Assembly: GCF_000003815.2 (NCBI RefSeq) | Contig: NC_049981.1 | Location: 32,046,469-32,110,468, forward strand | Length of the DNA: 64,000 bases | Source: Branchiostoma floridae | Taxonomy: Eukaryota; Chordata; Leptocardii; Amphioxiformes; Branchiostomatidae | Direction: 5' to 3' | In this document: in pieces, positions 15,174-54,014 of the stretch | Position numbering within the stretch: position 1 is the stretch's first letter | Layout: each line of letters opens with the position of its first letter | The notes under the pieces: model-generated | The model's database searches: none | What the model was told of the DNA's origin: nothing | What the model saw: only the letters and a program-made list of their open reading frames with translations | Position numbers and translations under genes: made by a program

Positions 15174-15212
15174 ATGGCGCTTTTCGGGATGGATGTGTAT
15201 CTGCATGTTCTC
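15174..15212 (+). CDS. SGPL1: SGPL1 coding exon 1 (13 codons)
   Basis: The frame ATGGCGCTTTTCGGG... reads [13 protein letters not shown] and ends at a strong donor, CTC|GTAAGT. Length and phase (39 bases, phase 0) join exactly to the phase-0 exon at 18,002. The joined stretch YLHVL-LESAF resembles the short lumenal N-terminus of animal S1P lyases in length and hydrophobic pattern. Start choice is inference; a transcript would confirm it. Confidence 0.75.
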
Positions 15213-18200
15213 GTAAGTTTCTGCCATTTCTACTATTTCTACCCGTAAAGTAGGCCCCATATTTTGCTGAATGTAGGGTGAATATACGGGGTACATGTGG
15301 GTCGAGTCCGTTTTGTTGTAATTTGTTGGTATTTCTTGTTATATTTCGTCGAATTGAGTGTCCTTTTGCGCGAGCGTTAGTTACACAACTCAATTTCTGC
15401 TATTCTCCAAGCAGAGGTTTAGTCGCTGAGACATTGTAGTCGGGATTTTTAATCTGAGAGGAGCGAGCCGGTTAAAATCTTGACGATTGCTATATCTCCA
15501 CGACTCAACCTCTGCTTGAAGAAGAAGTTTCTACCATTCTTCCTCCTTGCTTTTATATATAACGCTGATTTGTTATCACTTGTCACACCAGTTTGTCCAG
15601 TACTAAAACCAGGGGTGCCTAAGCATTTGCACGAACCCTATGAAATTCGTACGAATATTATGTGATACACACGAATCACTATGCGAAAACGCACGAATAT
15701 TATGAAATTCGCACGAATCACTATGCGAAATCGTACGAATTTTATGAAATTCGCACGAATCACTATGTGACACACACGAGCCTTATGTGATTTGCACGAT
15801 CCTTATGCAAAATCGGCGGCCGGGAGGAGGCATGATTTTGAGCGTTTCTACCCGAGATATTTATATTTCAAGGCATGGAATGGACATTTACCGTCGCAAA
15901 GATGTATTTGATAGCCTGTGAGCTACTGTTTAGCTTCATTTCGGCGTGTTACATCGTATTTTCAGTCGCCGAAGCGGCGAAGCCGCCATCTTGAAAATCC
16001 CGCTCCGTTTGTCACGTGACCCCGCCAGTGGTTGCGCAATTTCGCATAAGGATCGTGCAAATCACATAAGGCTCGTGTGTGTCACATAGTGATTCGTGCG
16101 AATTTCATAAAATTCGTACGATTTCGCATAGTGATTCGTGCGAATTTCATAATATTCGTGCGTTTTCGCATAGTGATTCGTGTGTATCACATAATATTCG
16201 TACGAATTTCATAGGGATCGTGCAAATGCTTAGGCACCCCTGAAAACCTTGATAGGTGACTATACCTAACCCTGCGGGTGTTAAATCCCTCCCACATGTA
16301 TTACTGTATGTTTTATTTTGTGAAAGGCAGTGTTTGGGAACCCAAATGAACTTTGAAATTGGCCTCAGTCCAAATAACATGTCCTTGACCCTACACAAGA
16401 AATTATACACCCCGTATTATTTTTGGAGGCCAGATCAAAACAGAGATATCTCACTGCTTTCTTTTTTCCGCCCAAAAGTAGAAAGTGTAGAGATAACTCT
16501 CACCACCATGGATCGTTGCGCTACCCAAATGTAATGAGTGACGTTTAGCAACATTTAAAAAAAAAATAGGAGGAAACAAACTCAGAAAAGTGTTGTTAAA
16601 TCTTTGGACTTGTTTTTCTGAGCTTTTGTTTGCACAAGCCACCATCAGCAACAAAATGTGTTTGGTTTTGAAGGTGCTTAGGTCACAACTGGTTATCAGA
16701 ATAACAGTACTGCACAAATATTACTTCCCACACTTATGCTTGTGTTTTTTTTTAACCTTAATGTAACTACATCATAAACAAGACAGATATATTAACTAAT
16801 CTTTGTTTTTCTTTTCTGCTGAATTTGTAAGAACTAAGATTGATCAAATGGATGTGGTTAAGCCCTTGTCTGAAACAGATATCTTTTACAGTAAGCCGCA
16901 AAAATCCCTGTTCTCTATTAACAAAACAAGAAAGATAACTGATAAGACACACACATTCCAAACTGGGATTTTGGTAACCACCCCAAACTCCCGAAACATT
17001 TTAGTAAACTTATGTAGAATTGAAACATATGACAGAAAGACAAGTGGCTGAGCTTTAGAGTTCTTTTCAACGTCCATCTGCAACAGAACTCCCTCTGATG
17101 GTCCAGTGTTTGTTTTTGTTGCAGCTATAACATACATATGTTTCCTAATTCTTGAAATAATTTGTGAGAAATGGTCAACTAAGTAGTAAAGAAGGCCAGT
17201 TCTTAGTGCAGAATGTGTCATGATTATTGTATCATGTTGGTCGTATATCACAGAGTAGTGGGTTACCTTTAAGCTAAGGATGCAAGAAAAAATTTGTCCT
17301 TTGCTCTCTCTTGATAAATATGTTGTTGCAAGCCAAGGATCAGTTGCCAGCTTTTCCCAGACACAGCAAACAAAGCTAACAGGTTTGATCTAAACAGGGT
17401 ATAAAGGTGGACAATGAAGGTTCATCCTTCTGTTTGGAGCTTTTCAACTTTTGTGTCTCTGAGTTATCTTATTTCAATGGCTAAAGGGGAACAGGATGGG
17501 CATTGTGTATCACTGATAGGGACTTGTTGTACATAGGAGTGTGTGTATTGTCAGGGATTTTAGTGGCAGTTTATTCCCAAGTCCCAACTAATCCCAAGTA
17601 AAGAATCTGTATCATTTTTTATCCTAGTTAGTTTACGGGAATTACTAAATACTTAAGGAAGGCTAGTCTGTGCCCTGCTTTATCTGTACTTCATAAACAA
17701 AATATCCAGTTGTGGGGCTAAGAAGACAGAAAGAAACAAATCTATGGATTTATACCTGTAGAATCATACTGATTAGAATTTAGATATTGTTGAGTCGAGT
17801 CTTCAGCCAGAATTTCTGTTTTAGTGCCACTCTTCATGGAAGAAACATCTCAGGTTTCCGTGTGTTGTTGAGTGCCCTGAAGTTGTTTACCACTGGGTGG
17901 TTTTCCATGTTCTCTTAATGCAGAAATGTCAACTCTCAAATGACTCCGGATCCAGACCGCACTACCAGGGCCTGACTGACATCTTTTCTTTCTTTTTCCA
18001 GCTCGAATCCGCATTTAAAGTTTCGGATTATGTCACGTCGATTGAAGAGAGTTTCAACACGTACATTGAGCAGAATGGTTATCCGCCGCACCAGTTGTTC
18101 CTGTTCACCATCGCCGTCACACTGTTGATGGTATGGCTCTACAGGTTCTTCTTCATGCATGAGCTCAGTAAGTTATGCCCTTCACCTGTTTGTTAAAATG

Positions 18201-21200
18201 TTTGTCACGAAGCTTTCCACGAAATCGTCTTCCGGGAGGGACGTAAAACGGGGGTCCCGTGCTCGAGGAGTTGCCTCGACCACGTTAAACAGCCTCATTA
18301 CCCACACTTTGGGTACCTACTGGCTGCAAAATACACCCGATATTATTATACTAATCTTACCCATGAAATGTTCTTGCGCATAATTATTTGTCTGTTATGG
18401 CTAAAGATTAGTCACTTGGAAAGTGCAGGATAATTCTTAAAAGGTTTGCAACGTCTGATTATGTCAGAAATGAAAAATGAAGAGGAGTTTTCTTTGTCTT
18501 GTAAAAGTTTTACTTAAACTGGAAATTCATTTTTATGAGTATCCTAACTACATGTATACTCAGTTCAAACGTACAGATGTATGAACTATCATAAAGTTAT
18601 GGCATTCATTTGATGTCACATGTAGATCTGAAAAATTAAATTTTAGTTAGTCAAGAAGCTACTAGTAACTTGCCTGTGTTATAATATATTTGTGTTTAAA
18701 GCAGTTTAAAGCAGGTCTGACCTGAGTCATTTCCTGGTAAAATAAATAAAGTGAAAGTGTGTGTGAAACTTTAAGATTTTGTGTTTATTTCTTACACGTA
18801 CCTCCCTTCCTGTAGGCATGTGGGAGAGATTCAAGCTGTCGCTTTTCAAGACAGTTAGGAGGCTGCCCTACTTTGGGCCACAGGTAAGACACTGCTACTG
18901 TAGTGTTACATGTGAAGGAAGTGGACAAGACATTTATGGATCAGTTAAAACTTAGAAACTGTAGTTGTTTTCTTTGAAGTATCTGACAATGCATCTGATG
19001 CTTCCCCAGATTCAGAAGGAAGTACACAAGGCCCCAGACATGTTTGCCTGGGAAAATCAGACTGAGGGGGTGCTTTCCTCTCGGCCTCTAGGAGTCTGGT
19101 TTTCCCGGGGTATAGACATGTATAAAATAGTTAAAAGGAACTATTCAGGACACAGTTTAAAGTCTGTTGTGTTTTTGTTTGTCTTTGAAGCATCGGCTGT
19201 TTTCCTCAGATCCAGGGGAAGTTGGAAAAGTCACCTATGAGTATGAAGCAGTTAAAAGGAAGAAGTCAGAAAACAGTTTAAACAGTTTTCTTTCTTTGTT
19301 CAAAGTTCCTGACCATGTAGCCATTGTCTTTCCCAGATCCAGGGGGAGTTTGAACTTGGAAAAAGGCATTAGACATGTATGAAACAGTTTAAAGGAAAAA
19401 GTCTTTAGTGTTTTTTTTGTTTGTTCAAAGTTCCTTACATGTATTCATTGTCTTCCTTAGATCCAGAGGGAGGTTGAAAAGACCCTTGACAAGATGGCGG
19501 GGTCGATGTTCCAGCTGCCCCCGGGGATGAAGTACGTCTACGGGCTGCCCGAGAACGGCCTGTCTGAGGACCAGGTCATGCGGGCCGTCAAGGGCTACCA
19601 GCAGCTCGGTAAGGAACTACTTTCTCATTAGTATGTCAGATCTCAAAATACCACCTGCATATACAGGTTAGGGCAGGTAAAATTGAAGCTGTGCAGGTAT
19701 TTCTGATGTCTACCTGCACCTAACCTGCACTGGTCCATGTACTGGGTTTTATGCATTATTTGATGTCCTGTCATGTAGGTGTACATGGATTGTTATTATC
19801 TGCATTGACTTTTACCACCTATAGAGTATAAAAGAAAAAGAAAAATAGCAATGGTACCTGAACAATTTTAGTATGATCCATACTTCCTAACTTCAGAGTG
19901 GTGCAGGTAAAATTGTCTGGTGCAGGTAATTTTCAATGTTACCTGCACCAGTGCAGGTATGCAGAAAAAAGTATTTCGAGCCCTGTATGTCAAAAAGCAG
20001 ATAGGATATGATTTTGTCATATGTCAGACGTTTCAGACACTATCCCATATCGTGTCATTGATGAAAGACATTGGATGGTTGTCTGAAACGTCCGACTGTT
20101 TCCAAAATCATCTCCAGTTGCTGAATCAGTTTTGAAGAAACAATGCTTGCTTGATGTTGAAAGTTGTTGAATCTAAAAAGCTATCAGTCACTGAAGTGGA
20201 GTACTATGTAGAGCTTTATACTTAAACATTATAGTACATGATATTCATGGACCTAGTGGCTATTGATAGCATAACAGCACATTGTAGAAAAACAAAGCTA
20301 CATTGTTGGTAATCATGGGTAAGTTGTTCAGAGTCTGACCTTGAAGTTTTTGTGCCTCGGTATAAGTGATATCTTGATATCTTTCAAAAATTAAAATGTT
20401 TCCTTTTATTGCAGGCCACGTTGACTGGAAAAAAGGAAATGTTTCGGGCACTGTTTACAGTGGACAGCCTGAGCTGACGCAGCTCTGCACCAAGGTGTGT
20501 TGTTTGTGTGTCTGTTTTGTTTTGTTTGTTTACTGTTTTGTTTGTTTACTAACTTTTAGGGTAACACTACTAGTGTAACCACTCGTTTACCCACTAGTTT
20601 ACACAGGTGTAGTTGGATAAACTCTTTTCTTACCATCTGTGAAAGTTTCATTAGTAAGAATACCTTGAACCTTAAGCGAGAAACTCTGTGCCGGCAGGTG
20701 TACGGCGAGTTTGCGTGGTCCAACCCGCTGCACCCAGACGTGTTCCCCGGCGTACGCAAGATGGAGGCAGAGGTCGTGGCCATGACCTTGAAGATGTTCA
20801 ACGCCGGAGCGAACGCCTGCGGCGCGGTGAGTCACCCATACACGTGGAAAAGTGACAACTGACTATCTCAACTTCAGACTTTTCCTACAAGACAGCTTTG
20901 TGTTTGGTAGTGTCGGTTACGCCTGGGTCATATTTCCCATCCGGAGTCTGGCCAGACAGGTTTGGCGAATGAAAAGAATAAAAGGCAACAAAATCACAAT
21001 ACGTACTGAAAATATACCAGAGCATGAATATGAAATATAGCAATAAAGCAACACTGTCTAACGTATTGTTTGTTTACTAGATGAAATTCCAACAACACGG
21101 TCTAATATGTAGACTATTCTGGTGCAGGAACACAGCGTAACATGTTTGTTTGTTTGTTTACTAGATGACCTCTGGCGGCACAGAGAGCATCCTGATGGCC

Positions 21201-24200
21201 TGCCTGGCCTACAGGAACATGGCTAAGGAGCGCGGTGTCACCCTGCCCGAGATGTAAGAACCTTTTTTGTTTGTTTTTTTGTTTGTTTGAAGATAAACTT
21301 TGTTGTTGCCTACTCTTCCATTGACAGGGAAAAACTGTTTTAGAGCAAAGCTGGTTTCTTTTCCTGTAAATAAGAACAAAGTTACGTCTTTAACAATTAT
21401 TTCTGTGGGTTGGATCAAAATTACACAAAGTTAACGTTGATGGTGAAAAATGTGCCACTTCTCTTTTGTTTGATCAAACGTTTGTTGTTTTCTCCCCAGT
21501 ATTGCCCCCTTCAGTGTGCACGCTGCGTTCGACAAGGCTGCCCACTATTTCGGCATGAGGATCATTCACGTCAGGATGGACCCCAAGTCTTGGAAGGTCA
21601 ACATCAAGGTATGCAGTCTACACATTACAATGTAGTGGTATTCAGTGTTTGATTATGAATACTTCTGCGAGGGTCTCTGACACAGGGGTACAGTAGGTGG
21701 CAGTTGGCTATTCTTCACGCCGTGATTCCATGTGGCTCAGTCCACTGATACCAGACAATATTTATTACTAGAAGTAGTATCCAGTATTTGATTTTCATAC
21801 TGCTGTATAGGTTCCTGACACAGTAGTGGGTTAAGCAGTCAGCTGGTCTTCACACTGCGGCGGTTCCATGCAGCTTTGTCCAGCGGGCTCACCCTAGTTA
21901 GACTGCACACCTTGATACCACCCTCCTAACACAGGATTAAATCTTCGACATGGCTTTTTAGTAGTAGTAGTAGTAGTATCCAGTATTTGATTATACTGCT
22001 GCTGGGGTCCCTGACACACGGGTAGTCTACCAATGGCCTCTTTCCAGTGTGTTCACTTGTACAAGGCAGTAGTTAGTAGTAGCCAGTATTTGATTTTCAT
22101 ACTGCTGCGAAGGTCCCTGGCACGGAGACAGCAGTCTGCCCTGGTACTTGTGACTTATGATGATTAACATGCCACGCAAGCACAACCAATGACACTGTGA
22201 CCAACAGTAACCGGTACATCGTACTGCCCGGCTGTACCTGCCCCTTAAATGACACTGTGACCAACAGTACTGTAAATGCAGAAACTTTCACGGTGGATGA
22301 ATGTTCGCGGTTTTCGCGGTGGCCGCTTCACCGCGAACTTAAAACCACTGCAAACATTCTTCCATGGCAGTAAGAGACTACAGTGCATGATGCTACTGCG
22401 AACTTAAAACCACCGCAAAAAGTCCTTTTTCTGCTACCGCGAAATTAAATCCCCGCAAGCTTAAATGCATTTACAGTAACTGGTACATGGTACTGGTACC
22501 CACCCCAGTAACCGGTATATTGTACAGTAGCAACAGTAACTGTTTAGGAGTAACGTTTCCTCCTGTCCCCCCAGGCCATGCGGAGGTCCATCAGCAGCAG
22601 CACCTGCATGGTGAGTTAACCCTAATCCTGCTGCCTAATCCTGTAGACCCTGCAAATTTGGAGCCTTAAGGCTACCTTAGCAGGCATAAGGTTTATAAAA
22701 GGTCTCACTTAGTTCAAGTACTCATAGAAGCTCATCTGTGTTGGTAGTAATCATAGAACAATGCTTAACTTTATTCCAGCACCTAGCTGGATAGTAAGTG
22801 AGTGAGTGACGTGTACACAGATCAAATTTTCAACAACCACCGTTACCTTCTTCAGGATCAATACCTGAATCACTTATCAGAAGAATGTAAACATGCGAGA
22901 GTTTTGCAGACACGTGTACAAATACATTATTGTACATTTACATGTACACGAAAGTTACAACTGTTACAAGAGGATGTCTCACTTGTACATGAATTCTGTG
23001 CTGTTTGCTTGTACCATTCTGTTGAGCTCATCAATGTTTTTGTTCCATATTCCAGCTGGTCGGATCTGCCCCACAGTTCCCACATGGTATCATCGACCCC
23101 ATCGCTGACATTGCCAAGGTGAGAACTAAACTTCACTCATGTAACTTAAAAGTACTCAGCAACAGTTTCTCAAGCAACTGGTTAAACTTTGGAGATGTCA
23201 GACCAAATTGTATCCAGTTGCTTGTCGAACAGTCACCTTAGGCATCTTGGATGTGCAACCTTCATTGACACATGGTTTATTCAGTTTGAAAAAATGATGG
23301 GTGTTTGAGATGGGCTTTTTTGTTTGTTTGTTGTTTTGTTTGTTGTTTACAGCTTGGCAAGCGTTACAGGATCCCAGTGCACGTGGATGCCTACCTGGGA
23401 GGGTTCCTACTGACTACTGTAGTTGCTGATTGAGATTTTATTGAGAGTTTTGTTTGTTTGTTGTTGTTTAGACATTTGTTTGTTGTTGTTTACAGCTCGG
23501 CAAGCGTTACGGGATCCCCGTGCACGTGGACGCCTGCCTGTCTGGGAGGGTTCCTGCTGTAGTGGCTGATTATTTATTTGTTTGTTTGTTGTTGTTTACA
23601 GCTCGGCAAGCGTTACGGGATCCCCGTGCACGTGGACGCCTGCCTTGGAGGCTTCCTGCTCCCCTTCATGGGGAAGGCTGGGTTTGAGCTGCCCCCGTTT
23701 GACTTCCGTCTGGACGGGGTGACCAGCATCTCCGCTGACACTCACAAGGTTCGTATGTGGGTTCACAATGTAGGAGGTTTGTCTTTTGTTCTGAAGAACA
23801 AATATGTATTTTGAATTATCTTATACAATGATAGATTTGGTAAGTTTGAAACAACTTCCAGTCTGGATGGTGTAACCAGCATCTCCGCTAACACTCACAA
23901 GGTAGATACAAGGGATTTACAATATACTTTCTGTTTTGTGTCCAGAAATATGTAATATTGGGAATATTTTTGATCTAAATGATGTTCAGTTTTCGTCTGA
24001 ACATTGTAGGCTATAGGTTTTTAAAGCCTTAACTGAAAGGAAGGGATTGTAGATCATCATTTGTACTTAGTCTGGTAATAGGAAGAAAGGGCTTCAGTTA
24101 TAAGGGTTGGATATGAGCTTAGTTAATGAATGGTAAAAAGATGAACTGAGTTGCTGACGATCGATAGTGGGTGCTATATCAAACATTGGAATTTTCCCTT

Positions 24201-27200
24201 AGTACAAAATGTAATACTTAGCAACAACTTTTGCATGCTGGATATGAGGTAAGGTTGAAGGAAGACTGTTTTCGGGAAAAAAGGACATGAAAATCATTCT
24301 TTTGACTTATCAGTGCATTCTAACACTCTTTTGGCCCCCCTCCCCACCTTTCAGTATGGCTTTGCCCCGAAGGGCTCGAGCGTTGTGCTGTACAGCGATA
24401 AGAAGTACCGCCACTCCCAGTACTTCGTGCAGCCCAACTGGCCGGGAGGTGTGTATGCCACCGGAACCATGGCCGGCAGCCGCGCGGGCGCCATCGTCGC
24501 CGCGTGCTGGGCAACCATGATGAACATTGGAGAGGACGGTAGGGCCGACTCACTTTTTATAGAGGGGTGGTGGTCTGTTTACAGCCATCTTGCCCTGACT
24601 GCACATACTTAGACCAGGTTGTTGCTTGTACATATTAAGCCAAACAGCATCTCTTAGAATAAGTTTCTGAGTAGTAACAAAATGAAAGAGGTTTAAAATT
24701 TTTGGTTTTGAATTGTTATGCAAGTAAAGGAAAGACATGATAAACATCGGATGACGGTAGGGCCGACTCACTTTTTACAGAGGGGTGATGGTCTGTTTGC
24801 AACCATCTTGCTCTGCCTGATTCTTTTACATACTTAGGCCAGGTTGTTGCTTGTACTTATTTAGCCCAACAGTATGTCTTAGAATAAGTTAATGAGTACA
24901 AAATTAAAGACATTTAAAAATTTGGTTTTGAAGGTTTATGCAAGTAAAGAAAAGACATGAAAAACATCGGATGACGGTAGGGCCGACTCACTTTTTACAG
25001 AGGGGTGGTGGTCTGTTTGCAGCCATCTTGCTCTGACTGATTTCTTTTACATACTTAGGCCAGGTTGTTGCTTGTACTTACTAGTATTTAGCCAAACAGC
25101 ATCTCTTAGAATAAGTTTCAGAGAAGTAACGAAAGAGGTTTAAAATCTTTGGTTTTGAAGGGTTATGCAAGTAAAGGAAAGACATGAAAAACATCGGAAA
25201 GGACGGTAGGGCCGACTCACTTTTTTTGAGGGGGTGTTTGACATGCATCCCTCCCTGATGTCTTAATGAATCAGGCTAGATTTTTTATTATCATAATTAT
25301 GCTTAGGCCAGGGTTTTACTTATTTGGAACAACATCCCTTGGAATAAGTTTCCGAATAGCATCAAAAAGAAAAACATTTGGAAAGTTTCTTTTTAAGGGT
25401 TATGCTAGTAACTAAAAGCTTATTAGATTGTTAAACATATTAGGGGAAAAGTACTTAGGTTCCATGTACGTTGAGTGGAAGGCAAGGGCATGCATGTATT
25501 GCTTTTGATTCTACAACCCTAAAAAGGGACTGAGAGATCTACATGCATGATATGACAGTTCTTGCCCTTTGTAAGTTGCTGTGTGAGCTAGCTCAATCTG
25601 CCCAAACACAAGCCTATCATTTTTGCCATTTATATGTTAAATATACGTTGACGTGATATCCTGTTTCCTAGGCTACGTTGACATGATATCCCATTTCCTA
25701 GGCTACGTTGAGAGCACCAAGAAGATCGTGAAGGCCGCCCGCTACATCGCCAAGGAACTGAAGAAGATCGACGGAATCTTCGTGTTCGGCGAGCCTGAGG
25801 TCAGCGTGGTCGCCTTCGGATCCGAGGTGTTTGACATCTACAGGGTGTCCAACACTCTCACCGCCAAGGGCTGGAACCTGAACTCACTGCAGTTCCCATC
25901 AAGGTAGGGGGGTCTTCAAGTACAGGGGGTCTTAAGCATCAGGGGGGTCTTCAAGTACAGGGGGGGTAGTAGCAAGGGGGTATCCAACACTCTCACTGCC
26001 AAGGGCTGGAACCTGAACTCACAGCAGTTCCCCTCAAGGTAGGGGGGTCTTCAAGTACAGGGGGTCTTAAGCATCAGGGGGGTCTTCAAGTACAGGGGGG
26101 TAGTAGCAAGGGGGTGTCCAACACTCTGACTGCCAAGGGCTGGAACCTGAACTCACTGCAGTTCCCATCAAGGTAGGGGGGTCTTCAAGTACAGGGGGTC
26201 TTAAGCATCAGGGGGGTCTTCAAGTACAGGGGGGTAGTAGCAAGGGGGTCTCCAACACTCTGACCGCCAAGGGCTGGAACCTGAACTCACTGCAGTTCCC
26301 ATCAAGGTAGGGGGTCTTCAAGTACAGGGGGGTAGGAGCAGGGGGGTCTTCAAGTACAGGGGGGTCTTATTATGAAATGTTCAAGGGTGGGAACTTAAAG
26401 TCTCTGCAGTTCCCCTCAATTAAGGTAGTGGAGTCTTGTTCAAGTACAGACAGTAGGAGCAAGTGGTCTTAAACACCAGGGGGATCGTGCTAAGAGTAAA
26501 TCTGTAACCGTTCTTAATGTACATGGGGAATTGTTTCTGATTGAATGATATTTGCAAGCATGTTTGATTTGTAGTGCATGTTGTTGTTACACGTTTTTTT
26601 GTGTGCAAATTATGCAAGCTAAATGAAGGAACAACAAAGTGGAGAGAGTTTAAGAACGACAAGGAAGAAAAAAAATTATTATCAGTATATTGAATTGTCA
26701 CAGGTTAAAAAGTTAAACCCTTCCCGCGCCTGGTGGCGCATAGGGCGGTGCCCATCTCTGTTTCATTAGCCCTGGGTCACACAACGCAATCACTACAGCA
26801 GGGGGCTAGTCCACTGGTAGTGGTGTGTGTTCAACTTCCATACTCTTTCCCGAATGCTGAGTGCTAAGCAGAGAAAGCAGCATGTACCATTTTTAAAGTC
26901 TTTGGTATGACTCGGCCGGGATCAAACTCACGACCTTCCGAATGCAAGGCAAACACTCTACCCACTAGGCCATTGCATCGGCCGCATCGTAATTGTCACA
27001 GGGCTCCCTTGGAAATCAGTCTGTTAGACTGAAGGGACCACCCTACAAGATCAATACATAAATAAATAAAGAATATGCCAGAACCTGTAAACAAAATCCT
27101 GTCTAAAGCCAGACTGCTTGCCTTCCCAGCATCCACCTGTGCTGCACGCTGTGCCACACCCTTCCCGGCGTCACCGACCGCTTCATCAACGACGTGAAGA

Positions 27201-29070: not shown

Positions 29071-29075
29071 CATGT

Positions 29076-30092
29076 TGCTGTCCTGCAACCAATGGGATAA
29101 CAGAACAGTCCCAAATAACCAAAGGAATAACAGAACAGTCCCAAATAACCAATGGGATAACAGAACAGTCCCAAATAACCAATGGGATAACAGAACAGTC
29201 CCAAATAACCAATCGGATAACAGAACAGACCCAAATAACCAATGGGATAACAGAACAGTCCCAAATAACCAATGGAATGACAGAACAGTCCCAAATAACC
29301 AATGGGATAACAGAACAGTCCCAAATAACCAATGGGATAACAGAACAGTCCCAAATAACCAATGAGATAACAGAACAGTCCCAGATAACCAATGGGATAA
29401 CAGAACAGTCCCAAATAACCAATGGGATAACAGAACAGTCCCAAATAACCAATGGAATGACAGAACAGTCCCAAATAACCAATGGAATGACAGAACAGTC
29501 CCAAATAACCAATGGGATAACAGAACAGTCCCAAATAACCAATAGGATAACAGAACAGTCCCAAATAACCAATGGGATAACAGAACAGTCCCAAATAACC
29601 AATGGGATAACAGAACAGTCCCAAATAACCAATGGGATAACAGAACAGTCCCAAATTACCAATGGGATAACAGAACAGTCCCAAATAACCAATTGGCTAA
29701 CAGAACAGTCCCAAATAACCAATATAATAACAAAACAGTCCCAAATAACCAATGGAATGACAGAACAGTCCCAAATAACCAATAGGATAACAGAACAGTC
29801 CCAAATAACCAATATAATAACAGAACAGTCCCAAATAACCAATGGGATAACAGAACAGTTCCAAATAACCAATGGGATAACAGAACAGTCCCAAATAACC
29901 AATATAATAACAGAACAGTCCCAAATAACCAATGGGATAACAGAACAGTTCCAAATAACCAATATAATAACAGAACAGTCCCAAATAGCCAATGGGATAA
30001 CAGAACAGTCCCAAATAACCAATGGGATAACAGAACAGTCCCAAATAACCAATAGGATAACAGAACAGTCCCAAATAACCAATAGGCTTAGA
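29076..30092. repeat. 30-base minisatellite, about 34 copies
   Basis: The unit begins CAGAACAGTCCCAAATAACC and continues AATGGGATAA. Most units are identical or differ at one to three positions, chiefly in the triplet before ATAA (GGG, AGG, TAA, GGA). Because 30 is divisible by three and the unit lacks stops in several frames, it yields frames of up to 362 codons on both strands; these are artefacts. Every unit contains CCAAT. Confidence 0.97.
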
Positions 30093-31194: not shown

Positions 31195-31735
31195 CAGATA
31201 CACACATGTAACGTTTGATACTACATCGTACATCAGACTGTGACACATGTAACGTTTGATACTACATTGTACATCAGACTGTGACACATGTAACGTTTGA
31301 TACTACATTGTACATCAGACTGTGACACATGTAACGTTTCATACTACATTGTACATCAGACTGTGACACATGTAACGTTTGATACTACATTGTACATCAG
31401 ACTGTGACACATGTAACGTTTGATACTACATTGTACATCAGACTGTGACACATGTAACGTTTGATACTACATTGTACATCAGACTGTGACAACTGTAACG
31501 TTTGATACTACATTGTACATCAGACTGTGACACATGTAACGTTTGTTACTACATTGTACATCAGACTGTGACAACTGTAACGTTTGTTACTACATTGTAC
31601 GTCAGACTGTGACACATGTAACGTTTCATACTACATCAGACTGTGACACATGTAACGTTTGATTCTACATTGTACATCAGACTGTGACACATGGAGCGTT
31701 TGATACTACATTGTACATCAGACTGTGACAACTGA
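31195..31735. repeat. 41-base minisatellite, about 13 copies
   Basis: The unit reads GACACATGTAACGTTTGATA then CTACATTGTACATCAGACTGT. A few units have TTCATAC, ACAACTG or a short deletion (near 31,625). Not divisible by three, so no long frame. Contains CATGTAACGTT. Confidence 0.95.
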
Positions 31736-31801
31736 AGTGGATCTCTATGAGTCAATACAGGAATCAATGTGAATTCTGTCTTGCGTGATTTTTGTTGTAA
31801 C

Positions 31802-33697: not shown

Positions 33698-38544
<4,847 letters not shown>

Positions 38545-40619: not shown

Positions 40620-40792
40620 CTAGTGCACGTCCGCCGTTCTCGCCGTGTCAGCCTGCCCCGCCCCTTTGTGGTGACTGACATCTGTCATCCCCTCCCCGCT
40701 GGACAGCTGCATGGACACAATGGACTGTTCCAGCCCCGAGTCAAAGTTCGGGCTGGCGATGTGACCCCTGACCTTCTCGGCATCCAGGGTGG
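40620..40792 (-). CDS. NFKB1: Last coding exon with DSG phosphodegron
   Basis: Residues 977-983 read DSGLEQS, with the same spacing as the IKK-phosphorylated, beta-TrCP-recognised DSG-x3-S motif of vertebrate p105. It is preceded by SPNF and followed by [12 protein letters not shown]. The exon ends ADVH-stop at 40,620. Signal-induced degradation of the precursor is therefore likely an ancestral chordate feature. Confidence 0.9.
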
Positions 40793-43700: not shown

Positions 43701-46700
43701 TAAAGCATTGTTTGTTACCTGTGAGTTGAGAAAGAGGTCCCTTGGTCACCTCCAACTTAATGTTTATCAACATTTCATTACTCCAAAAGGAAGCCTTAGG
43801 CTTTTAATTTTCCCTGCACCAGTTAAATAATATGTATTATTCTTAATAGTTTATCATCTGCTGTTTAATAAATGTGTACAGCTGAATAAACAAAAAAAAT
43901 CACTAAAAATGAAAAACCAGTGTCTAGCTGACCTCGAGGATGAGGTACCCGGTGATGGCCAGGTTCTCGTTCTCCACCGCGTGATGCAGCGCTGTCCGCC
44001 CGCTCTTCCCGTCAGGAACGTTCACGTCCACCTTGGCCATGACCAGCTCCTTCAGCGCCCCAAGGTTACTCGCCATCACGGCCAGGTGCACAGGTGTGAA
44101 GCCTGCAGGAGACATGGAGGATCTTAGTTATTGTGGAAAACAAGATGAAATGGACTCAATTCCATATCTTCAAAATGACTTACGCCAATTTTTTTTAAAT
44201 TCCTTCTTCAACAGAAGGTGCCAAATATTAGCTTGTGAATTTTAGTGATTAGCGGCCCTTCCTCTTTAACTAGAGTAGAAGGCTCAGTGTTTGATTCCTT
44301 AGTGGTGTTGGAAGTACATTGTAATGTCTTTCTACATAGTTAGGATATCTTGTGTATCTGCCTAAGTCTTAAAGTGTTATCATAATGGTAAATATTGAGA
44401 ATTTCCCTCACCCTCAAAGTTATGCGCGTTGATGTCAGGAGTGTTGGCGACACCGGGTGCCTGGGCTGGGATGTTCCGCAGGATGGCCTGGAGACTCTTC
44501 TCATCGCCTGCAGGGGGGAGGGGGGCAGTCACCTTCAAGTTTACAACTTATCATATTGTACAAATTAAATGCATTTTAGAAGCAATTCATCAACCACCTT
44601 TAAGAGATTTCTTTTTCCCTATCAATTCCATTCCAGCTAGTCATCCCCTTACAATTTACAGTGTTTTTTTCTTAACATAACTTTTGTACAGTAACGTTAC
44701 ACCTTTTTTCAATCTACTTCAGATCTTACGTTACAACTTTCCACCACAAAGTCATTTCTATCCCCTCAAGAGTTCCTTAAATCTAATTGGATGTATGGAA
44801 ACTTTGATCAAAATCCATGATTCAAAGGTTCCATTTGGTCTGATTGGATAACTTGAAAAGGATCCTCAAGCCTGATTGGACAAGTTAAGAGATTCCCCCT
44901 TGTCTGATTGGATGATGTGAATGAAGCCTTACCAGCCTTAGCCGCCAGGTGCACAGCTGAGTTGCCATGGCGATCGGGCAGCCAGGGGTTTGCTCCGCAG
45001 CGCACCAGCAGGTCCGCCACCTGGGGCTGCTGGGTAATCACAGCCAGGTGCAGGGGAGTCTGGGTAATGGGAAAACCAAGTGTCATAAAGGGTCATTCCA
45101 TTTAGAAAATGGGGGATGAGTAGCAATTCTGTCCCAGAGGTTACAGGTAAGCAGGTTAGGCTCATACTGGGGACAAAGGTTAAAGGTTTTGGGTCACTGT
45201 CAGAGGTGGTTCTATTGATGACCCTGGGGGTCAGAGTCACATGATAGACAAAGGTTAAAGGTTACGTGTGACTGAACTGTCTGAGGTGTTTGTACTAGTT
45301 GATGACCCTGGGGTCATATGATAAACAAAGGTTACAGGTCATGCGTGACTGACCTGTCGGAGGTGGTTGTACTGGTTGATGACCCTGGGGTCACATGATA
45401 AAGAGAGGTTAAAGGTCATGTGTGACTAACCTGTCTGAGGTGGTTGTACTGGTTGATGACCCGTGCGTCGGGCAGGGTCAAGGTCACGTGCAGCAGGTTC
45501 TGCACCACCAGGGGGTTACTGTGGATGATGGCCAGGTGCAACGATCTGCAGGTAAAACATATGAAAACATCATTTAACAATAACTAGATTTAGTCGGCAG
45601 AGTGGGTAAAGTGAGCACCATATTGTCTTCAACGAAAGAAAATATTGCAATTTGAAACGACGGTTTGTCTGTTGCGGTTAGAAACATCACGATTGACACC
45701 AGATCCACTCACTTAGAGGACTAACTATTTGGCTTTATCTCCTTTAAGTTGGACTGTGTTTAAACAGAAAAGAAAAGAAAGAAAACTGACGTGTCTCCCT
45801 CGTCGTCCTGCACAGCTGTGAGGTGGCGCTGCACGGCCAGCAGCATCCGCACGTCCCCCGTGATGGCGTAGTCTCGCAGGGCGTTGGCCGTTCGCTCCGC
45901 CAGTTGCCAGGCAACATCCCCGTACTGCAGGGCACCCCGGCTGGGTCCCGTCGTACCTGTGGCAGTAGGAAACAAGGGATTTTAATGAAGTGATGGCGTA
46001 GTTTCGCAGGGCGTTGGCCGTTCGCTCCGCCAGTTGCCAGGCAACATCCCCGTACTGCAGGGCTGGAAATAAGGGAGTCTGAAGAAAATTCTGATTCACA
46101 TATGAAATGTGCAAATCTGCAATCTGTTTTTATTAAAACCATGTTTCTGGTCGTTGGTAACATTTAAGTACAAGTTGGAGAAAACTTCAAATGAAGAAAA
46201 ATTGAATGAACACTGCAAATGCCCTATCAACGCCGATAAATCTAAATGTACTGTCTTTACAAAGTTGCAAAAACTATCCCTGCCAATACTTCAACAAAAG
46301 TCCAGAGCTTTTGTCTGAGCTAATTTCCTTTCTGCTTGTCTGGTGTCATGAATTCATGGTGAAAAACACGGAAACAAAACCACCTCAAACATTTCAAGAT
46401 GTATATTCCCCGTTGTACCTTTCTGTTTGACTGCAGGATCAGGTTTAGTGAAGGCGCTGGGTTTCCACGGCTGCGGCCCCAAGCTGACAGCCTGCCCCTT
46501 CAGCCCTGCCTGGGCATCCCCTCCAATGTGAGCCTGGCTCATCGCCATGGAGTCCTCCATGGGGGCGGAGTCTGTGATGAGGTCATCGTCGTCGTCGGGC
46601 AGGGCGCTGTCGACAACCAGGTCATCGTCCTCCTCAGGCTGTCTGATTGGTCGATCCACGGAACCTGTGAGTGGACAAGGTTAAACATGATCCAAGGTCG

Positions 46701-49700
46701 CAAACTTTTTGTGTACAAAATACTGAACAATTTGTACCAGACAATTGCAATCAATAGGAATTCTCTAACTATATCAGTCTGTACTGCTATCTGTATAACT
46801 AATGATTATGACAAAAGTAAAGAAATAATTACCATAAAATACAGTATGCTCTTTTGGATGACATCAAGGCTATTTTCTCATCTTTCATTACATTCATTTC
46901 TTAAAGGAGGAAATGATAATGGTCATTTCCTGACCACTTTGTAGAAAACAAAAGTTCTTGATCAACTTATAACCAAAAAGCCTCCATTAGCTAATTTACC
47001 ACTTTACAAACAGCTGTTTATTGTACAATCTGAACTTGACCTTACCCTGATCCTTCATGGCACCCCCTCCGCCATACGCCTGGAAGGCCCCACCCCCTCC
47101 AAAGTGGAACGTTCCGCCGCCGATGGTGCTGCCAAATCCAAAACCACCCCCGTACATTCCTGTAGCAAAACAGACACATGCATGGACTCGGGTTTTGGGA
47201 ATCAGGTTTTCAAATATAAACCATAACATAAAAGTTGTGCATGTCTTTTGCTCAGGGCCAAAGCCGTATAGCAGCATTTTCAAGTTGTTTGGTAAACTTT
47301 ACAACACAAAACACTACCATGTCAGATTGAGTTTACCCTCTGTGCAGAGCCTCAGCTGTCAATATGGTGGTTAACAAAATCATGATTGCATAGTACTCAC
47401 CAGGACCGAACCCCCCTCCTCCTGCAGTGGGCCCTCCTGGCCCCCCTCCCCCGAAGTGGGTGTTGAAGTGTGGAACTGTCTTCTTCCTTTTCTTGCCGAT
47501 CTCTTCTTTATCTGTGGGAGTCAGAGAAATAATCACATCAAGATCATACTCACTCACTCTACTTCGAATACTACAACACCTGTCCTTGGTGCTGAACTTT
47601 CTTCACTCACAGACACAGTACCTGTTAGTATTGCAAAGACTTTTGATTTCAAAATTTTTCTGTGGTTTAACTTTAAAACTTGTTTTAAACTATGTACCAA
47701 ATCGCTGGTAGAGTTAAAGCACATGATTGAGTCTATGTTAAGGTGTGTAACCTTGGTATTTGTTTACAACATTCAAAATGGAAGTTTCAAACTGTACTAT
47801 GAAAGTAACTGTTATGCCTCAGGTTGAGAGTCAGGATAGTTTGTGTATGCATTGCAGAGTATCTATCCACTATATTTTAAGTTAAGTTTTAAACTGAGTA
47901 CCAAACTTAATGAAGTAACGATTGCATCTTGAGTTACAGTTTGAAACTGTTGTCGCTGGTGAGTAAAGGGTCTGGAGCTTACAAGTCTTAAGTATTGATT
48001 GCATTGACAGTTAAAGTTTGAAAGTGCATACCAAACTGCTGAGGCTGGTACGTGAAGGGTTTTTAACTATGTACCAAATTGCTGTTAGAGTTAAAAAATT
48101 TGATTGAGTCTATGTTAGGGTGTGTCAATTGCAAAGTATTTGTTTACAACATTCAAAATGGAAGTTCAAAACTCAGAACTGTTATGACTGGTTGAGAAAC
48201 AGGATAGCTTATATGTATGCATTGCAGAGTATCCATTCATTGTATTTAAAGTAAGTTTAAAATGAGTACCAAACTTAATGAAGTAATGATTGCATTGACA
48301 GTTAAAGTTTGAAAGTGCGTACCAAACTGCTGGGGCTGGTAGGTGAAGGGTTTTGGGTCGCTGAGTTCCCCGTCTGACTTCCTACGCAGCTGAACGTGCA
48401 CACTGATCGGCCTCTCGATAGCCATGTTGTGGTACGGCGGGGTCTTAAACACGATGGCAAACTGTGGAAACGGAAAACGTTAAGAAATTACAAGGGCTTT
48501 CTGTCATACTATGGCTGTAGAATACGTCGATGAAGGTTAGACATAAGATAGTAATAAGATATGCCAAAAAGCAGTTACTCAAGCAGTGGCTGTAGAATAG
48601 TAACATGATAAACTACCTAATGGAATTGCATACCAGCTTTGTGATCAGATTTAGTACAAATGCACCTGTACATGTTACATGTGGGACTGATGGATTTTAG
48701 TCATCGCATATTAGGGAATTCTCCAGCTTTTAACAAGAAGTCCAATCTAAGAAAAAGCCATTAAATTTAACATTGCTCCTTATAACCATTTCTCTTTCCC
48801 CAAAACTCAGTGACCTTCTTCCTTGTCCACACTTGAGCACTTAACAAACTGTGACTGTACAATTTTCTGTTGGTTACAAAAAAAGGCCGAAGTGTTAAGC
48901 AAGCCTCCTACATGACACCATGTGATGGTACTGACCTGTCTGTGGACGTCCGCAGGCCCAAAGTCTCCGTATGCCTCCCACTCTGATCCCCCATTGGTCG
49001 AATCATCTGCCTCCTCGTAGAAACGCACCTGGATGTCATCTGTGAAATAACATTAGTCAAAAGCTGACTCAGATGTTTACTGGTAGCCATAGTCTTATGT
49101 TTAATCAAAGAAGCTTGTTTCAATACTGCCAACTTGGTGAGTTTTTAAATCGTCGCTCAAAACATTTGCTTGATTGTTTTTCTAAACTGACCTACTTAAC
49201 AGTTGAAGGCATTTCTTTTCAGGGCTCTTAACCATTCAGTTCTTGCAATGCCACCTGTTAATAACTATGAAAATGCAGCAAAGATAGTCGAGTTTTCAAC
49301 TGGTTTGATGTAATGGTTTAACAAGAGATAGCAGCAAAAGTATCTGGCAAAGTGAAAATAACAGGCAAGTGACTGTCATATTAGGGTCAGGTTGGGTCAG
49401 GTCATGTGAAGTCAGGTCAGGTCAGGTGAGGTCAGGTCAGGTCATGTGAGGTCGCTCACCTTTCTGCACCTTGTCACACAGCAGGAAGACCTCGTCGCCG
49501 CCGGTTACGCAGCCGGAGTGGCGGTCCATCCGACAGATCTTCAGCGTGGAGGCGTTCGGGGCCTCTGTGATAACACAAGCATTGCGATTACTACCAGTAT
49601 TATACAGCATCAAAGACAACTTAATGCATTTCTTCATACTTTTATATACAAGGCTAGGGGTAATCCAAGTAATCAGTTCAGTCGGTGATGATCCAAGTAA

Positions 49701-51894
49701 TGTCATCATCATAAATTCAAAGTTCCACAGTTATGCAATGATGGGCACTATTTCCAGGACTGCTTTTAGATATGTAGAATTCGAAGAAACTGTACTAGAC
49801 TCACAGGATTAACCTACACATTCAAGATAAGTAAAATAAGTATCGTTGAAGAGATCCATTAGTCACATATGAGCACAGTTAATCGAATTTTCATCTAACA
49901 GTGACTTCTTTTTGGAGGTACGTGTGTACACCTACAAAAAGTCACTGTTAGTGGAAAATTCTATTAAAAGTAGAAAGTAAAAATAAGCTTGAACAGAGGA
50001 TACGTACTGCTATCGAATACGGCATCTGAGATGACAGGAGCGAGGGTGCGTGTGTACGCCCCGTTCTCTAAAACTCATACTATAACAGACAAGTAGTAAA
50101 CTACAAAGAGGCGAGGGTCAGACAAAGGCCAGGATACGTACTGCTGTCGAACACAGCGTCTGATATGACCGGAGCGAGGGTTCGTGTGTACGCCCCGTTC
50201 TCGTCCTGCAGGAAGGCCTGGAAGCAGACCCGCACCGCGCTCAGGTCCATCTGCTTCGCCTGATCCTGGGACTCCTTCGTGATCTGCTTCTTGTCTTGGT
50301 CTGAGGAAAATAAGAAATGTACAGAACAGCTGTGTTAGATTTGTATTCATTGCAGCAGCTTCTTATCTTGTCATGTTTTGAGGAAAGTACAAAATGCAGA
50401 GAACAGCAGTGTTAGGTTTGTATTTGTTGGAGACTTAACAGCTTCTTGCTTTGTCTTGTTCTGAGGAAAGAAGATGTCGTAAAACATCATGTTAGCTGTA
50501 TTAAACCATAGTAATTAGATACAAGTGTATCTAAGATTAGCCCATTTTTATGGAAATCTAGTTCCTTTCTCACCTGTCATTGTGTCAGTGTGGTTGTGGA
50601 TTTACTCTAAAATAACTGGTGGCGTTATTTGCTGTTGTATTCACATGTATTGCTTTAAATATACATTTCTACACAGTCACATGAAAAAGAGTTTTGGTAT
50701 CAAACCATCCTCTGTGATATTGTGAAAAAAAATCAAGAAACAAAATAGAGGTAGACTTAAGCTTCCTAACATTACAATAAAGCATGTTCAAACTACTGAG
50801 AGTAAAGAACAAGGGACACACCGCTAAACTTTTATCTCAAAAGTACTTTCCTGATGGAATGATTGAATGAAAGATTGATGAACAAAGAGCTCAGGATGTG
50901 CGTTTCCTCACCTGTGATGTACTTGTTACTGTCCTCCTCGTTCAGGTTGTCGAAGTCGGGGATGATCTTCCCGGTCTCCTGGCAACGGCGGGCGGCGACC
51001 AGCTCCTTCATCTTCCTCTTCTCCAGGATGGACGGGACGTTCTTCTTGGTCACATGGAGAACACCCAGGTTTGGGAAACTGGTTTCGAGAATAGAGAACA
51101 AAAGGTGTTACGGGGTCAGGATGGGAGGGGACGTTCTTCTTGGAACAAAAAGTGTTACTGAAACTCAGTGAAATTAGCTCCTGTTGTTTTAGTTGCAGGA
51201 GCTAAAAGTTTTGTTGCCGTGGGGTGGGGGGTGGGGGCGGGGTAGTGCTATGTCCCAAGTGCCGGAAAGTTCCATGCGTAGTCCCCCTTTTCTGGGACGA
51301 AGGATAGTGGATTCTATCCGAAACGTCTGACCGTTTCAAAACCATATCCAGTTGCTTGAGTAACTATTTTTGGTGTAAAGTTTGACAAAGATTATCTATT
51401 ATCATTTTGAACCATCATTTTCTGTGCATGTTATGTGCAGTGTAGCTACTAGTAGTAGTCTCTCCATCAGAGGAACTTGTTCTAAGTATGTAGTTGTTTA
51501 CTTACAATATTTTCAGGATGAAAACAAACACATAACATATTCTATTCCAGCCATGAGATGAGGAAGGCAGCTGAGGACTTAATGAAACACTGTCCAGGTA
51601 AATGTTATATTGGGATTCAAGAACCCTGGTTTTCTATAACACCTAGTACATATTTCTATGCAGCCTAAGTCTGTAAAACATTTTGAGTCCCTATAGGGAA
51701 TAATTATCAAACAGTTTGACTGAGGAGGTGTTCAACCTTAGTGGAAAGGAGGTTGAAAAAAACACTTCTGGAGAAACGAGTGACTCACGTTGCCGTCATG
51801 TCCTTAGGCCCGACCTGCACCACACAGAACCCGTCCTCGTTGCACTGCTTCCCCACCAGGTACAACTTAACAACCAACCACTCTATGTGTGTCT

Positions 51895-51927
<33 letters not shown>

Positions 51928-53924
51928 GACATGGGGGGAGGGGGGGCCAAGACTCACGTTGCTGTCATGTCCTTAGGTCCGACCTGCACCACACAGAACC
52001 CGTCCTCGTTACACTGCTTCCCCACCAGGTAGTGCGCGTGCGGCCGCGGCTGGTCCTCATTGGTCATCAGGGTCACCACAATACGGGCGTAACCTTGGTA
52101 ACCAATGATCTAAACAAAGGGACAATACATGAATTTCAACCATATGATGCCTACACATCCTATATTTTGAAGACAATTTCACTGACTACTTGGTATTTGA
52201 CAACATAAGAGATTTTCTAGTTCAACTCTTACACATGGAAATGATGTGTCATGTGACTTAAAAGTCAAGTTCATTTACCTAAGCAAAATCGCTCTGATGC
52301 AAAGCATTGTCTACAATTGTGAAGAGCCTGATCACAAATACATAAAAATTTAAACCAACTGCTTTATGCTTTGAACATGAAAATATCATTAAGATGGGAT
52401 TTCTTGGTTATACAATTAACAACTTACATGTACATGCTGGCAAATCTATTCTTTGAGACTAGTTACAATCTAAAAGCTCAACACAATACATAGGATACTG
52501 CGTGCTGTCTGAGTGAAGAAAGAAAACCCCATAACTGTTGTTACCTTGACAGCCGGGTATGTTTTCCTGTTCTTCTCGCTGTGTATCCCGGGAATCCCGC
52601 CGTGGGACGGACCCTCGCACCCGTACCGGAAACGGAACCCGCGCTGGCAGGGGAGACGACAGGAAAGTCAAATATGCTTACTTATCAACCAAGAAATATA
52701 GACCAATGATCTGAACTACATGTACATGTATCATTGTCACAGAGTAACAAATAAAGGCTTAATAATTAAAGCTGACTGAAAACATATCGTTTATGAAGGT
52801 TAGACATCCAGGTAAACAATATTCAAATATATCACCTGTTTTTCTAGTTAGCTATAGTGTATTGAATTGTTCTGTCAGTTCATTTTAGTGACGGATGTCA
52901 CTCAAAACATCTGAAAGTAAATCTCTGTTTTTCATCCAGTTGTAGAGGTTTAATTGTATTTGAATATTATCTATATTTTCAGTATGTAGAATAGAATTTG
53001 TGTTTGATATGCTGTCATTTAGTATATGAAAGGAAAAAAAAAACTTATCTTTCAAGAGCAAACTAACAAGGAAATGCTATATAATTTTGTCTAATCCAAC
53101 AACAGAATCAAACATGTATGACTAGCTCTTGACTATGAGTATGAAGTGTTGCTGTGTAATATAACTTATATATACAAGTAGAGAAGAAGGAAATTGTTAC
53201 CGATTTGGGCTGTTCAGTGATCTCGAGGTAAGGTGTGCCCTGCATCCCTATAATATAAGACACAGTGTTGTTAGGCACACAGAAATACTGGCTTGCACCC
53301 TGTATGTATCCTGTTTTATGATTATTGAAGGGTTCAAATCTAGCGAATTGAGGCTTAAAAATTATCAAATTGTAGCCTCTACAAAATGTTCGGGAGATTT
53401 TTAATCTAAAGCAGAATTATGACATTGCAGCCTAACATGAAAACTACATTTTAGGACATTAATAAATATAGTTTTATTAGACTGTTTCTACTTTGCAAGT
53501 TGCAGCAGCAATACCTAACTGTTATGTAAAATAGAACCAGTCATTATTGCAATAAAAGTAAGAAATGTCTCAAACGGTCGTGAAGTCAGCAGGTAAAGTT
53601 TTCCTGGTGGTGTATGCAAATGAGGAAAACTTAAAACTCACTACATATAGTACATAACATTATTTACATGATGTTTCCTATCTCACTGAGAAAGGTGGTA
53701 GATGGTCCCCCCAAATGTCTACAGGTAAATTTAGAATTAAGTTTGTTTACTAGGAAACCATACCTGAAACAGGTGCGTTACTCACCTGTGTTCCCGTTCA
53801 TGGCGTGCTGCATTTCCGTCATCTTCTGCAGCAGGCTGATGTCTGGCGCTCCCTCCTCCCCGTTGATTATCTCGTTAACGAGCGACGCGGGAAGTTCCAC
53901 CGACTCGAACGCCATGTCTGTCAT
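40620..53924 (-). CDS. NFKB1: NF-kappa-B p105/p100-type protein, 22 coding exons
   Basis: Ancestral class-I NF-kB; whether to call it NFKB1 or NFKB2 is arbitrary in an invertebrate. Exons in transcript order: 53924-53786, 53247-53201, 52643-52545, 52109-51958, 51078-50912, 50300-50142, 49564-49460, 49039-48936, 48461-48323, 47511-47401, 47159-47046, 46664-46419, 45956-45791, 45545-45431, 45059-44933, 44507-44412, 44102-43933, 43406-43188, 42750-42672, 42221-42043, 41200-41056, 40792-40620. All are GT-AG and in phase: 1016 codons (human p105 about 968). Domains: Rel homology 52-370 with [13 protein letters not shown] (66-78), NLS KKRKK (377-381), glycine-rich region about 390-445, acidic segment 446-527, ankyrin repeats about 560-825, death domain 852-911, C-terminal degron. 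Glycine-rich-region processing should release a p50-like DNA-binding subunit. Confidence 0.97.
41203..41430 (-). repeat. NFKB exon-21 acceptor array
   Basis: The start of exon 21 (plus: AACTTAGCAACTGTTCCCTC then CATCAT) with its acceptor (plus CT, TAG on minus) recurs five times. Acceptor positions are 41,243, 41,288, 41,330, 41,373 and 41,415, with period 42-45. ACATGTAACTTAGCAACC marks each unit. Several copies keep a usable AG. Confidence 0.93.
41431..42042. other. NFKB intron 20, nothing coding
   Basis: A GC-richer patch at 41,570-41,740 (CCACGTGGTGACCGCGTGTC) lies between AT-rich flanks. It contains CACGTG (E-box) but no exon with splice sites. Confidence 0.5.
42043..42221 (-). CDS. NFKB1: Death-domain exon (coding exon 20)
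   Basis: [38 protein letters not shown] and [15 protein letters not shown] form the helices of the p105-type death domain, including the conserved DW-LAE-LG core. The domain assists IKK and TPL2 interaction in vertebrate p105 (family knowledge). Confidence 0.93.
43188..45956 (-). CDS. NFKB1: Ankyrin-repeat exons (coding 13-18)
   Basis: IkB-like C-terminal half. Repeats show the TPLHLA pattern: [102 protein letters not shown] and [10 protein letters not shown]. An acidic insert ([15 protein letters not shown]) sits within the last repeat, as in vertebrate p105/p100. This region should mask the NLS and inhibit DNA binding. Confidence 0.95.
45180..45430 (-). repeat. NFKB exon-14 donor array
   Basis: Plus-strand units read (A)CCTGTC(G)GAGGTGGTTG then TACTGGTTGATGACCC, copying the last ~30 bases of exon 14 with the donor. 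The genuine donor is at 45,429-45,430. Copies follow at 45,352 (donor intact), about 45,275 and about 45,198 (donor mutated), period 77. Each spacer contains AGGTTAAAGGTCA-like sequence. Confidence 0.93.
45986..46063 (-). repeat. Partial copy of NFKB exon 13
   Basis: 73 bases nearly identical to the exon-13 interior (GGCGTTGGCCGTTCGCTCCG ... CCGTACTGCAGGGC) lie upstream in transcript order. On minus the copy is preceded by TTTCCAG, a possible acceptor, and reads [20 protein letters not shown]. It has no good donor. Confidence 0.93.
46419..46664 (-). CDS. NFKB1: Acidic linker exon (coding exon 12)
   Basis: 82 codons with a near-duplicate acidic motif, [13 protein letters not shown] then [12 protein letters not shown], a possible recent internal duplication in coding sequence. 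It connects the glycine-rich region to the ankyrin repeats. No known domain. Confidence 0.9.
47046..47511 (-). CDS. NFKB1: NLS and glycine-rich region exons (coding 10-11)
   Basis: The exon at 47,401-47,511 starts [16 protein letters not shown] (nuclear localisation signal) and runs into [14 protein letters not shown]. The exon at 47,046-47,159 continues [20 protein letters not shown]. In vertebrate p105 such a glycine-rich stretch after the Rel domain halts the proteasome and fixes the end of p50, so constitutive processing is expected. That role is inferred. Confidence 0.93.
47640..48322 (-). repeat. NFKB exon-9 donor array
   Basis: GTACCAAACTGCTGGGGCTG (plus; donor plus exon end) recurs in decayed form at about 48,030 (GCATACCAAACTGCTGAGGC), 48,073, 47,696 and as AGTACCAAACTTAATG at 47,900 and 48,268. 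Whole blocks of about 365 bases, including ACAACATTCAAAATGGAAGT, are duplicated. Intron 9 is largely made of these copies. Confidence 0.8.
48323..53247 (-). CDS. NFKB1: Rel homology domain exons (coding exons 2-9)
   Basis: [20 protein letters not shown] opens the DNA-binding half. The recognition loop [13 protein letters not shown] contains the Arg, Tyr, Cys and His residues that contact kB DNA and give redox sensitivity in Rel proteins. The dimerisation half contains [64 protein letters not shown] and [10 protein letters not shown], all close to the vertebrate p50 pattern. Intron phases are 0, 0, 2, 1, 1, 1, 0, then 1. Confidence 0.97.
49384..49456. repeat. AGGTC pentamer repeat
   Basis: GGTCAGGTCAGGTGAGGTCA-type sequence, a run of AGGTCA half sites directly abutting the donor of NFKB exon 7 (49,458-49,459). 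Confidence 0.85.
49885..49961. repeat. Hairpin with about 33-base arms
   Basis: GAATTTTCATCTAACAGTGA ... pairs with ... TCACTGTTAGTGGAAAATTC around a short GTACGTGTGTAC-type loop. It lies in NFKB intron 6. No similarity to other hairpins in the window. Confidence 0.7.
50000..50070 (-). repeat. Copy of NFKB exon-6 end and donor
   Basis: ATACGTACTGCTATCGAATA ... GTGTACGCCCCGTTCTC repeats the last ~58 bases of exon 6 and its donor (genuine donor 50,140-50,141, copy 50,006-50,007; period 134). Several substitutions (ACGGCATCTGAGATGACAGG) show decay. Confidence 0.93.
51780..51866 (-). repeat. Copy of NFKB exon-4 end and donor
   Basis: ACTCACGTTGCCGTCATGTC ... TGCTTCCCCACCAGGTA repeats the final ~75 bases of exon 4 with an intact donor at 51,787-51,788 (genuine 51,956-51,957; period 169). 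A (TG)n run separates the copies. Confidence 0.93.
51888..51930. repeat. (TG)n microsatellite
   Basis: About 20 TG units with a TC interruption, followed by a G-rich run. It sits between the two copies of the NFKB exon-4 end. Confidence 0.95.
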
Positions 53925-54014
53925 GGCAGTCGCGGTTCAGAACCAAACACGTCAATTCTTTGTTAGCGCTCGCTTTCCGTTCTATCTCACCACCTCTTTA
54001 CAACGGGAAGCTAT
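53925..54014 (-). other. NFKB1: NFKB 5' UTR part of first coding exon
   Basis: On minus, a long T-rich tract ends TTTGTCACAG|ATAGC at 54,015, an excellent acceptor 90 bases before the ATG. An upstream noncoding exon must exist. A second in-frame ATG occurs three codons later. Confidence 0.8.

Follow-up and report, generated by a model that had tools for sequence, protein, structure and literature searches.

The window analysed here, a 64,000-nucleotide stretch of the Branchiostoma floridae genome (contig NC_049981.1), holds the adjacent genes SGPL1, RNLS and NFKB. When the window is compared with itself, local same-strand repeats are seen that contain an exon edge together with its splice site and are copied into the adjoining intron. 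The question that they raise is whether such repeats come from a process peculiar to this locus or aimed at splice sites, or whether they are what short duplications leave behind after selection. We favour, at a probability of roughly 0.7, the reading that they are mirage minisatellites, i.e. short-range duplications of which selection has let through those that do not alter the mRNA. Passages of two papers (PMC3087553, PMC3902484) describe mirage minisatellites as named for Adh3 and also found in the globins BflGb6 and BflGb9, in troponin C and in PGBD5, so an amphioxus Adh mirage, which an earlier note on this DNA had mentioned, is indeed in print. According to the same passages, the published mirages (Adh3, globins and troponin C) are said to leave splicing undisturbed, and copy number varies between haplotypes or assemblies (BflGb6 and PGBD5).

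Exons in the window were located by searching PDB sequences with translated frames (NFKB lies on the minus strand), and splice sites were fixed by reading phase, homology and splice scores. The modelled set comprises 32 introns, i.e. 64 junctions, of SGPL1, RNLS and NFKB; it excludes SGPL1 intron 1, the part of NFKB that lies 5' of its first modelled Rel exon, and the NFKB stretch from 44933 to 44102, and it includes a last NFKB intron (43188 to 42221) in which a hidden exon is possible. A repeat was taken to straddle a junction under a strict rule, with the match reaching at least 5 bp beyond the junction on either side (blastn E<=1e-3). By this rule, 10 of the 64 junctions (7/32 donors and 3/32 acceptors) lie inside a local repeat. 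With two weaker cases (acceptor 25702 and donor 23748) the number rises to 12, of which 8 are donors and 4 are acceptors, in agreement with the earlier note, which had counted about twelve such duplications and placed them on both donor and acceptor sides. The note's statement that the unit always straddles the junction fails: among 15 arrays, found in 14 of the 32 introns, 10 straddle strictly (11 counting donor 23748) and five do not, the donor 23748 copy being one of these five. The arrays themselves stand, with periods of 30 to 291 bp in place of the range of about 43 to about 230 bases first given.

In SGPL1 (plus strand), acceptor 19461 lies in an acceptor-side array of a ~121-bp unit at 69% identity (19120-19478), and acceptor 23602 has two copies upstream at 72-86% identity with their decoy AGs intact (23318-23660). 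At donor 23748 (23702-23903), a 49-bp copy of the exon end, ending in GT, is found 152 bp into the intron; it includes only 2 bp of intron and therefore fails the strict rule. Donor 24538 is followed by a 220-bp unit (24516-25418) with three decoy donors, all matching the real donor across its nine-base context. The exon at 25702-25903 is flanked by arrays at both ends: its acceptor has a 30-bp tandem unit (25641-25711) with a decoy TAG 30 bp upstream, which does not pass the strict rule, and its donor has a ~134-bp unit (25843-26486) with four decoy donors, three of them sharing the nine-base context of the real site. The frame is open across both copies at acceptor 25702, and use of the decoy acceptor would add ten residues. 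In RNLS (plus strand), donor 33815 (33772-34330) is accompanied by three decoy donors with the nine-base context of the real donor.

The NFKB arrays (minus strand) include a 77-bp unit at donor 45431 (45172-45462) with two mapped decoy donors, one of which has lost its GT, and a 77-83-bp unit at acceptor 50300 (50289-50470), where the decoy AG is lost. At donor 48323 (47990-48354), a copy at 95% identity lies 291 bp downstream and is part of a longer repeat array (47682-48317). Two further copies are displaced, namely a 72-bp copy at donor 50142 (49997-50202; displaced 134 bp, 90% identity) and an 81-bp copy, 74 bp of it exonic, at donor 51958 (51782-52031; displaced 169 bp, 96% identity). A third case (45860-46063) has 74 bp from an exon interior copied to the upstream intron at 98.6% identity, without a junction; this intronic copy has its own acceptor-like TTTCCAG just before it. 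Most arrays are tandem, as first described, and some copies are displaced. The spacers at donors 51958 and 50142, and likewise at loci L028 and L041, resemble either flank no better than shuffled sequence does, and the spacer at 45860-46063 is borderline (one side scores 24, where shuffled sequence reaches at most 23). The displaced copies look like short copy-and-insert events; young displaced copies with an unrelated spacer are not the product of simple tandem slippage.

Other repeats in the window lie off the modelled exons. Those at 15.6-16.2 kb, which fall within the range given in the earlier note, are not exon edges and belong to an inverted-repeat element: a MITE-like element of ~590 bp (15639-16227), unrelated to exons, in which a 20/42-bp tandem repeat makes up one arm and the reverse complement of that repeat the other. 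Between SGPL1 and RNLS there are arrays of a 30-bp unit in 33 copies (29087-30083) and of a 41-bp unit in 13 copies (31202-31730). More arrays (156, 348, 89 and 30 bp) lie outside the three genes at 4789-5330, 6437-7210 and 58884-59126; the units of the array at 58.9 kb, in which CAGGTAAGT-like motifs occur, possibly represent a further mirage.

As controls we used genes elsewhere in the same genome (513,431,437 bases in 431 contigs), found by a Pfam family search with exon-by-exon matches. The families (dynein DHC_N2, chaperonin, tRNA synthetase, adaptin, aminotransferase, thiolase and two dynein AAA_6 rows) were picked for size and exon number. They gave 42 stretches, 127 adjacent exon pairs and 116 resolved introns. 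The analysis took in 115 of these, which carry 40 locus labels and come from 15 contigs. The script that resolved introns was blind to repeats, and two loci were edited by hand: at L042 (where a repeated match was visible before selection) the acceptor was placed at the exon-side copy, and at L023 one intron beside a duplicated exon was dropped. Three control loci (L026, L027 and L030) contain some N. At L023 (2960-3690), a dynein exon of ~41 residues is present twice, ~610 bp apart and at 72% identity, possibly as a whole-exon duplicate; in the family rows, a short dynein exon stretch (positions 1-28) occurs in three copies ~145 bp apart (G000:C11:20521813-20522184). A globin family search of the genome, aimed at the published mirage, listed ten rows, and no repeat was evident among them.

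The control introns contain 30 arrays (in 26 of the 115), 17 of which straddle a junction (6 at donors and 11 at acceptors). A repeat covers 19 of 230 control junctions (17 if counted by array), and straddling arrays are spread over 13 of the 40 locus labels and 9 of the 15 contigs. Mirage arrays are therefore not confined to the SGPL1/RNLS/NFKB locus and are no property of one locus; of the locus- or genome-wide process that had been suggested, the genome-wide part is supported and the locus-specific part is not. In the controls, 15.9% of intron bp and 3.6% of exon bp fall in local repeats, and in the window 22.7% and 11.1%, respectively. Introns with an array are somewhat denser in the window (14/32 versus 26/115, Fisher P 0.024), as are covered junctions nominally (10/64 versus 19/230, P 0.097), in a comparison that has to be read knowing that the window was picked for exactly these repeats. 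Within control loci there are 246 same-strand HSPs, against 9 inverted ones within 2.5 kb and 34 between 39 pairs of different control loci (paralogous exons included), so local repeats are above chance.

With window and control together, straddling arrays are found at 13 donors and 14 acceptors (7 and 3 in the window, 6 and 11 in the controls). The exonic part of the straddling unit ranges from 6 to 91 bp (median 44), and its share of the unit is smaller than expected (mean 0.33 versus 0.44 under uniform placement, KS P 0.01). Unit length is a multiple of three in 9 of 27 cases, which equals chance. A process aimed at splice motifs, one of the ideas first put forward, is not supported, because donors equal acceptors overall and the exonic extent varies so widely. 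The best match is 96-100% in 5 of the 37 arrays listed, which is near the allelic divergence of Branchiostoma floridae, and 69-92% in 32 of the 37.

The arrays supply putative decoy splice sites, as had been proposed: GT/AG is kept in 63 of 68 copies, and 51 of the 68 score no more than one bit away from the real site, counts to which a single control array (L017, donor at 4745) contributes 13 copies, all with the donor context intact. Selection maintaining the decoys was considered and not established, since the preference for junction dinucleotides over the other aligned dinucleotides (0.857 versus 0.777, event-weighted over 28 junctions) has a Wilcoxon P of 0.07; nor was there any sign of selection against decoys.

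Whether the junction is favoured depends on what random duplication would leave. Duplications wholly in exons would be selected against, so random ones should remain in introns or across one junction, and given the small size of the introns (medians of 495 and 547 bp), about one third of tolerated duplications would be expected to straddle by chance. Under an analytic null, 11.7 of the 30 control arrays are expected to straddle with placement in their own intron (P 0.025 for the 17 observed) and 10.2 with pooled introns (P 0.008). When the limits on E-value and distance are varied, the P values range over 0.013-0.079 and 0.004-0.038, respectively. We also simulated random duplications in real introns, with exons conserved while the sequence diverged and the same detector applied. 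The simulated straddling share was 0.319 (3000 runs), and 0.27-0.34 across variants with array-free introns, two copies only or large deletions (1000 runs each), giving P 0.0006-0.009 for the control arrays. The view that random duplication would not favour junctions thus holds in part: it overlooks the 27-34% that straddle by chance, and both the controls (17/30) and the window (10/15) exceed that share. Tandem-only control arrays straddle in 14 of 20 cases (0.34-0.38 simulated, P 0.001-0.004), non-dynein controls in 7 of 9 (3.8 expected, P 0.017), and a gene bootstrap gives a confidence interval of 0.39-0.75 for the control share.

Several counts weaken this excess. Dynein genes alone give 10/21 straddling versus 7.9 expected (P 0.22), and there is no excess among control arrays below 80% identity (6/15 versus 5.6 expected) or among non-tandem control copies (3/10 versus 4.3 expected). 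An interim count of the first 88 control introns stood at 11/22 versus 7.9 (P 0.10). Removing the three N-containing loci leaves 16/26 (P 0.004 or 0.009), removing L042 leaves 16/29 (P 0.015 or 0.052), and removing both L042 and its paralogue L058, two loci whose selection is doubtful, leaves 14/27 (P 0.041 simulated, 0.109 analytic). That repeats in control genes overlap junctions more often than random placement predicts, as the earlier note proposed, is therefore moderately supported; the excess is modest, about 1.7-fold, and likely but not proven. Uniform random duplication taken alone under-predicts straddling in the five simulation runs, by the same factor of ~1.7, which counts against a purely random version of the favoured reading.

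An alternative that takes this excess at face value is duplication biased to the borders, for instance where replication stalls, R-loops form or repair takes place at GC-rich exon edges; per site, straddling units would then be about two to three times as likely as intronic units (a figure derived from 17:13 versus 0.32:0.68). The surplus of straddling arrays over the simulated share, which recurs in the tandem-only and non-dynein subsets, speaks for it, as does the higher GC of exon edges (0.548) compared with introns (0.381). Against it, the splice motif is not an anchor, donors and acceptors are hit alike, and the surplus is absent or faint in just those subsets where it is lacking above, i.e. 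arrays below 80% identity, non-tandem copies and dynein genes, as well as in the interim count and after removal of L042 and L058. We consider this alternative unlikely, though the strongest of the rivals. GC as the driver of the arrays was tried separately and is weak: intronic arrays have a GC of 0.418 versus 0.388 in the rest of the intron, and are higher in 10 of 17.

Far less probable is that the arrays mark newly gained introns that arose when AG|GT segments of exons were duplicated in tandem (intron gain of the Rogers type); a passage of the globin paper (PMC3087553) proposes intron gain from mirages. The presence of local tandem duplicates whose GT/AG sites are intact would suit it, but it requires an array over both donor and acceptor, offset by one intron length, and none of the 45 events of window and control reaches across an intron in this way. 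Assembly artefacts, whether from collapsed haplotypes or from mis-joined repeats, are just as improbable, since the five near-identical arrays and a globin mirage mis-assembled in a draft (as a passage of PMC3087553 has it) are outweighed by the 32 arrays whose decay mis-joins do not give and by re-sequencing that confirmed the PGBD5 arrays (in a passage of PMC3902484).

Set against known systems, the window arrays have units across the exon-intron boundary, on 5' and 3' sides, with AG/GT in the copies. Like the amphioxus mirages as the cited passages describe them, they are tandem units on the donor or acceptor side, often in several copies, that carry cryptic splice signals. Unlike those, the arrays of window and controls lie in new genes (SGPL1, RNLS, NFKB, dynein, chaperonin and others), include displaced copies beside tandem ones, and come with an estimated frequency and a test against random placement. 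They share tandem duplication with splice-like sites with the Rogers-type gain cited in part of PMC3087553, but here existing introns grow. With ordinary intronic minisatellites they share unit size, decay, multi-copy arrays and some occurrence off junctions, and differ in that their units take in exon edge and splice site above the rate of the random model. In the open-licence literature searched we found per-gene reports only, and neither a genome-wide mirage estimate nor a random-placement test; within that literature, the frequency estimate and the calibrated test are new, and the arrays are further mirage minisatellites.

The mechanism that we favour, duplication filtered by selection, starts from what is observed, i.e. 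arrays that spread to other genes, carry mostly intact decoys, are symmetrical overall between donors and acceptors and show a modest excess at junctions. Short-range duplications (mostly tandem, with units of ~30-290 bp, and some displaced) would recur along genes, their anatomy suggesting slippage, unequal exchange or templated repair as the source. Selection would purge those inside coding exons, and those within introns, as well as those that cross a single junction and place their additional copies in the intron, would spare the mRNA and so persist. Splicing, assumed here to be correct, would then need to use the exon-proximal site despite decoys that are often equally strong. The excess at borders might reflect GC-rich exon edges, mispairing anchored by exons, or arrays that are lost more slowly close to exons.

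Taken further, and more doubtfully, duplication may be ongoing and favour borders two- to three-fold per site, with about 1/12 of the junctions in conserved genes sitting in near-intact decoy ladders; introns would then grow from their edges, and splice choice would be made by exon definition and not by site strength. Mirages have been known gene by gene, and here they cover 19/230 control junctions, about 8%. If this figure holds for the junctions of conserved genes, the genome would be a natural mass experiment on a spliceosome that ignores strong decoys and on intron lengthening, and if the modest excess at borders holds as well, a mutational explanation would be called for.
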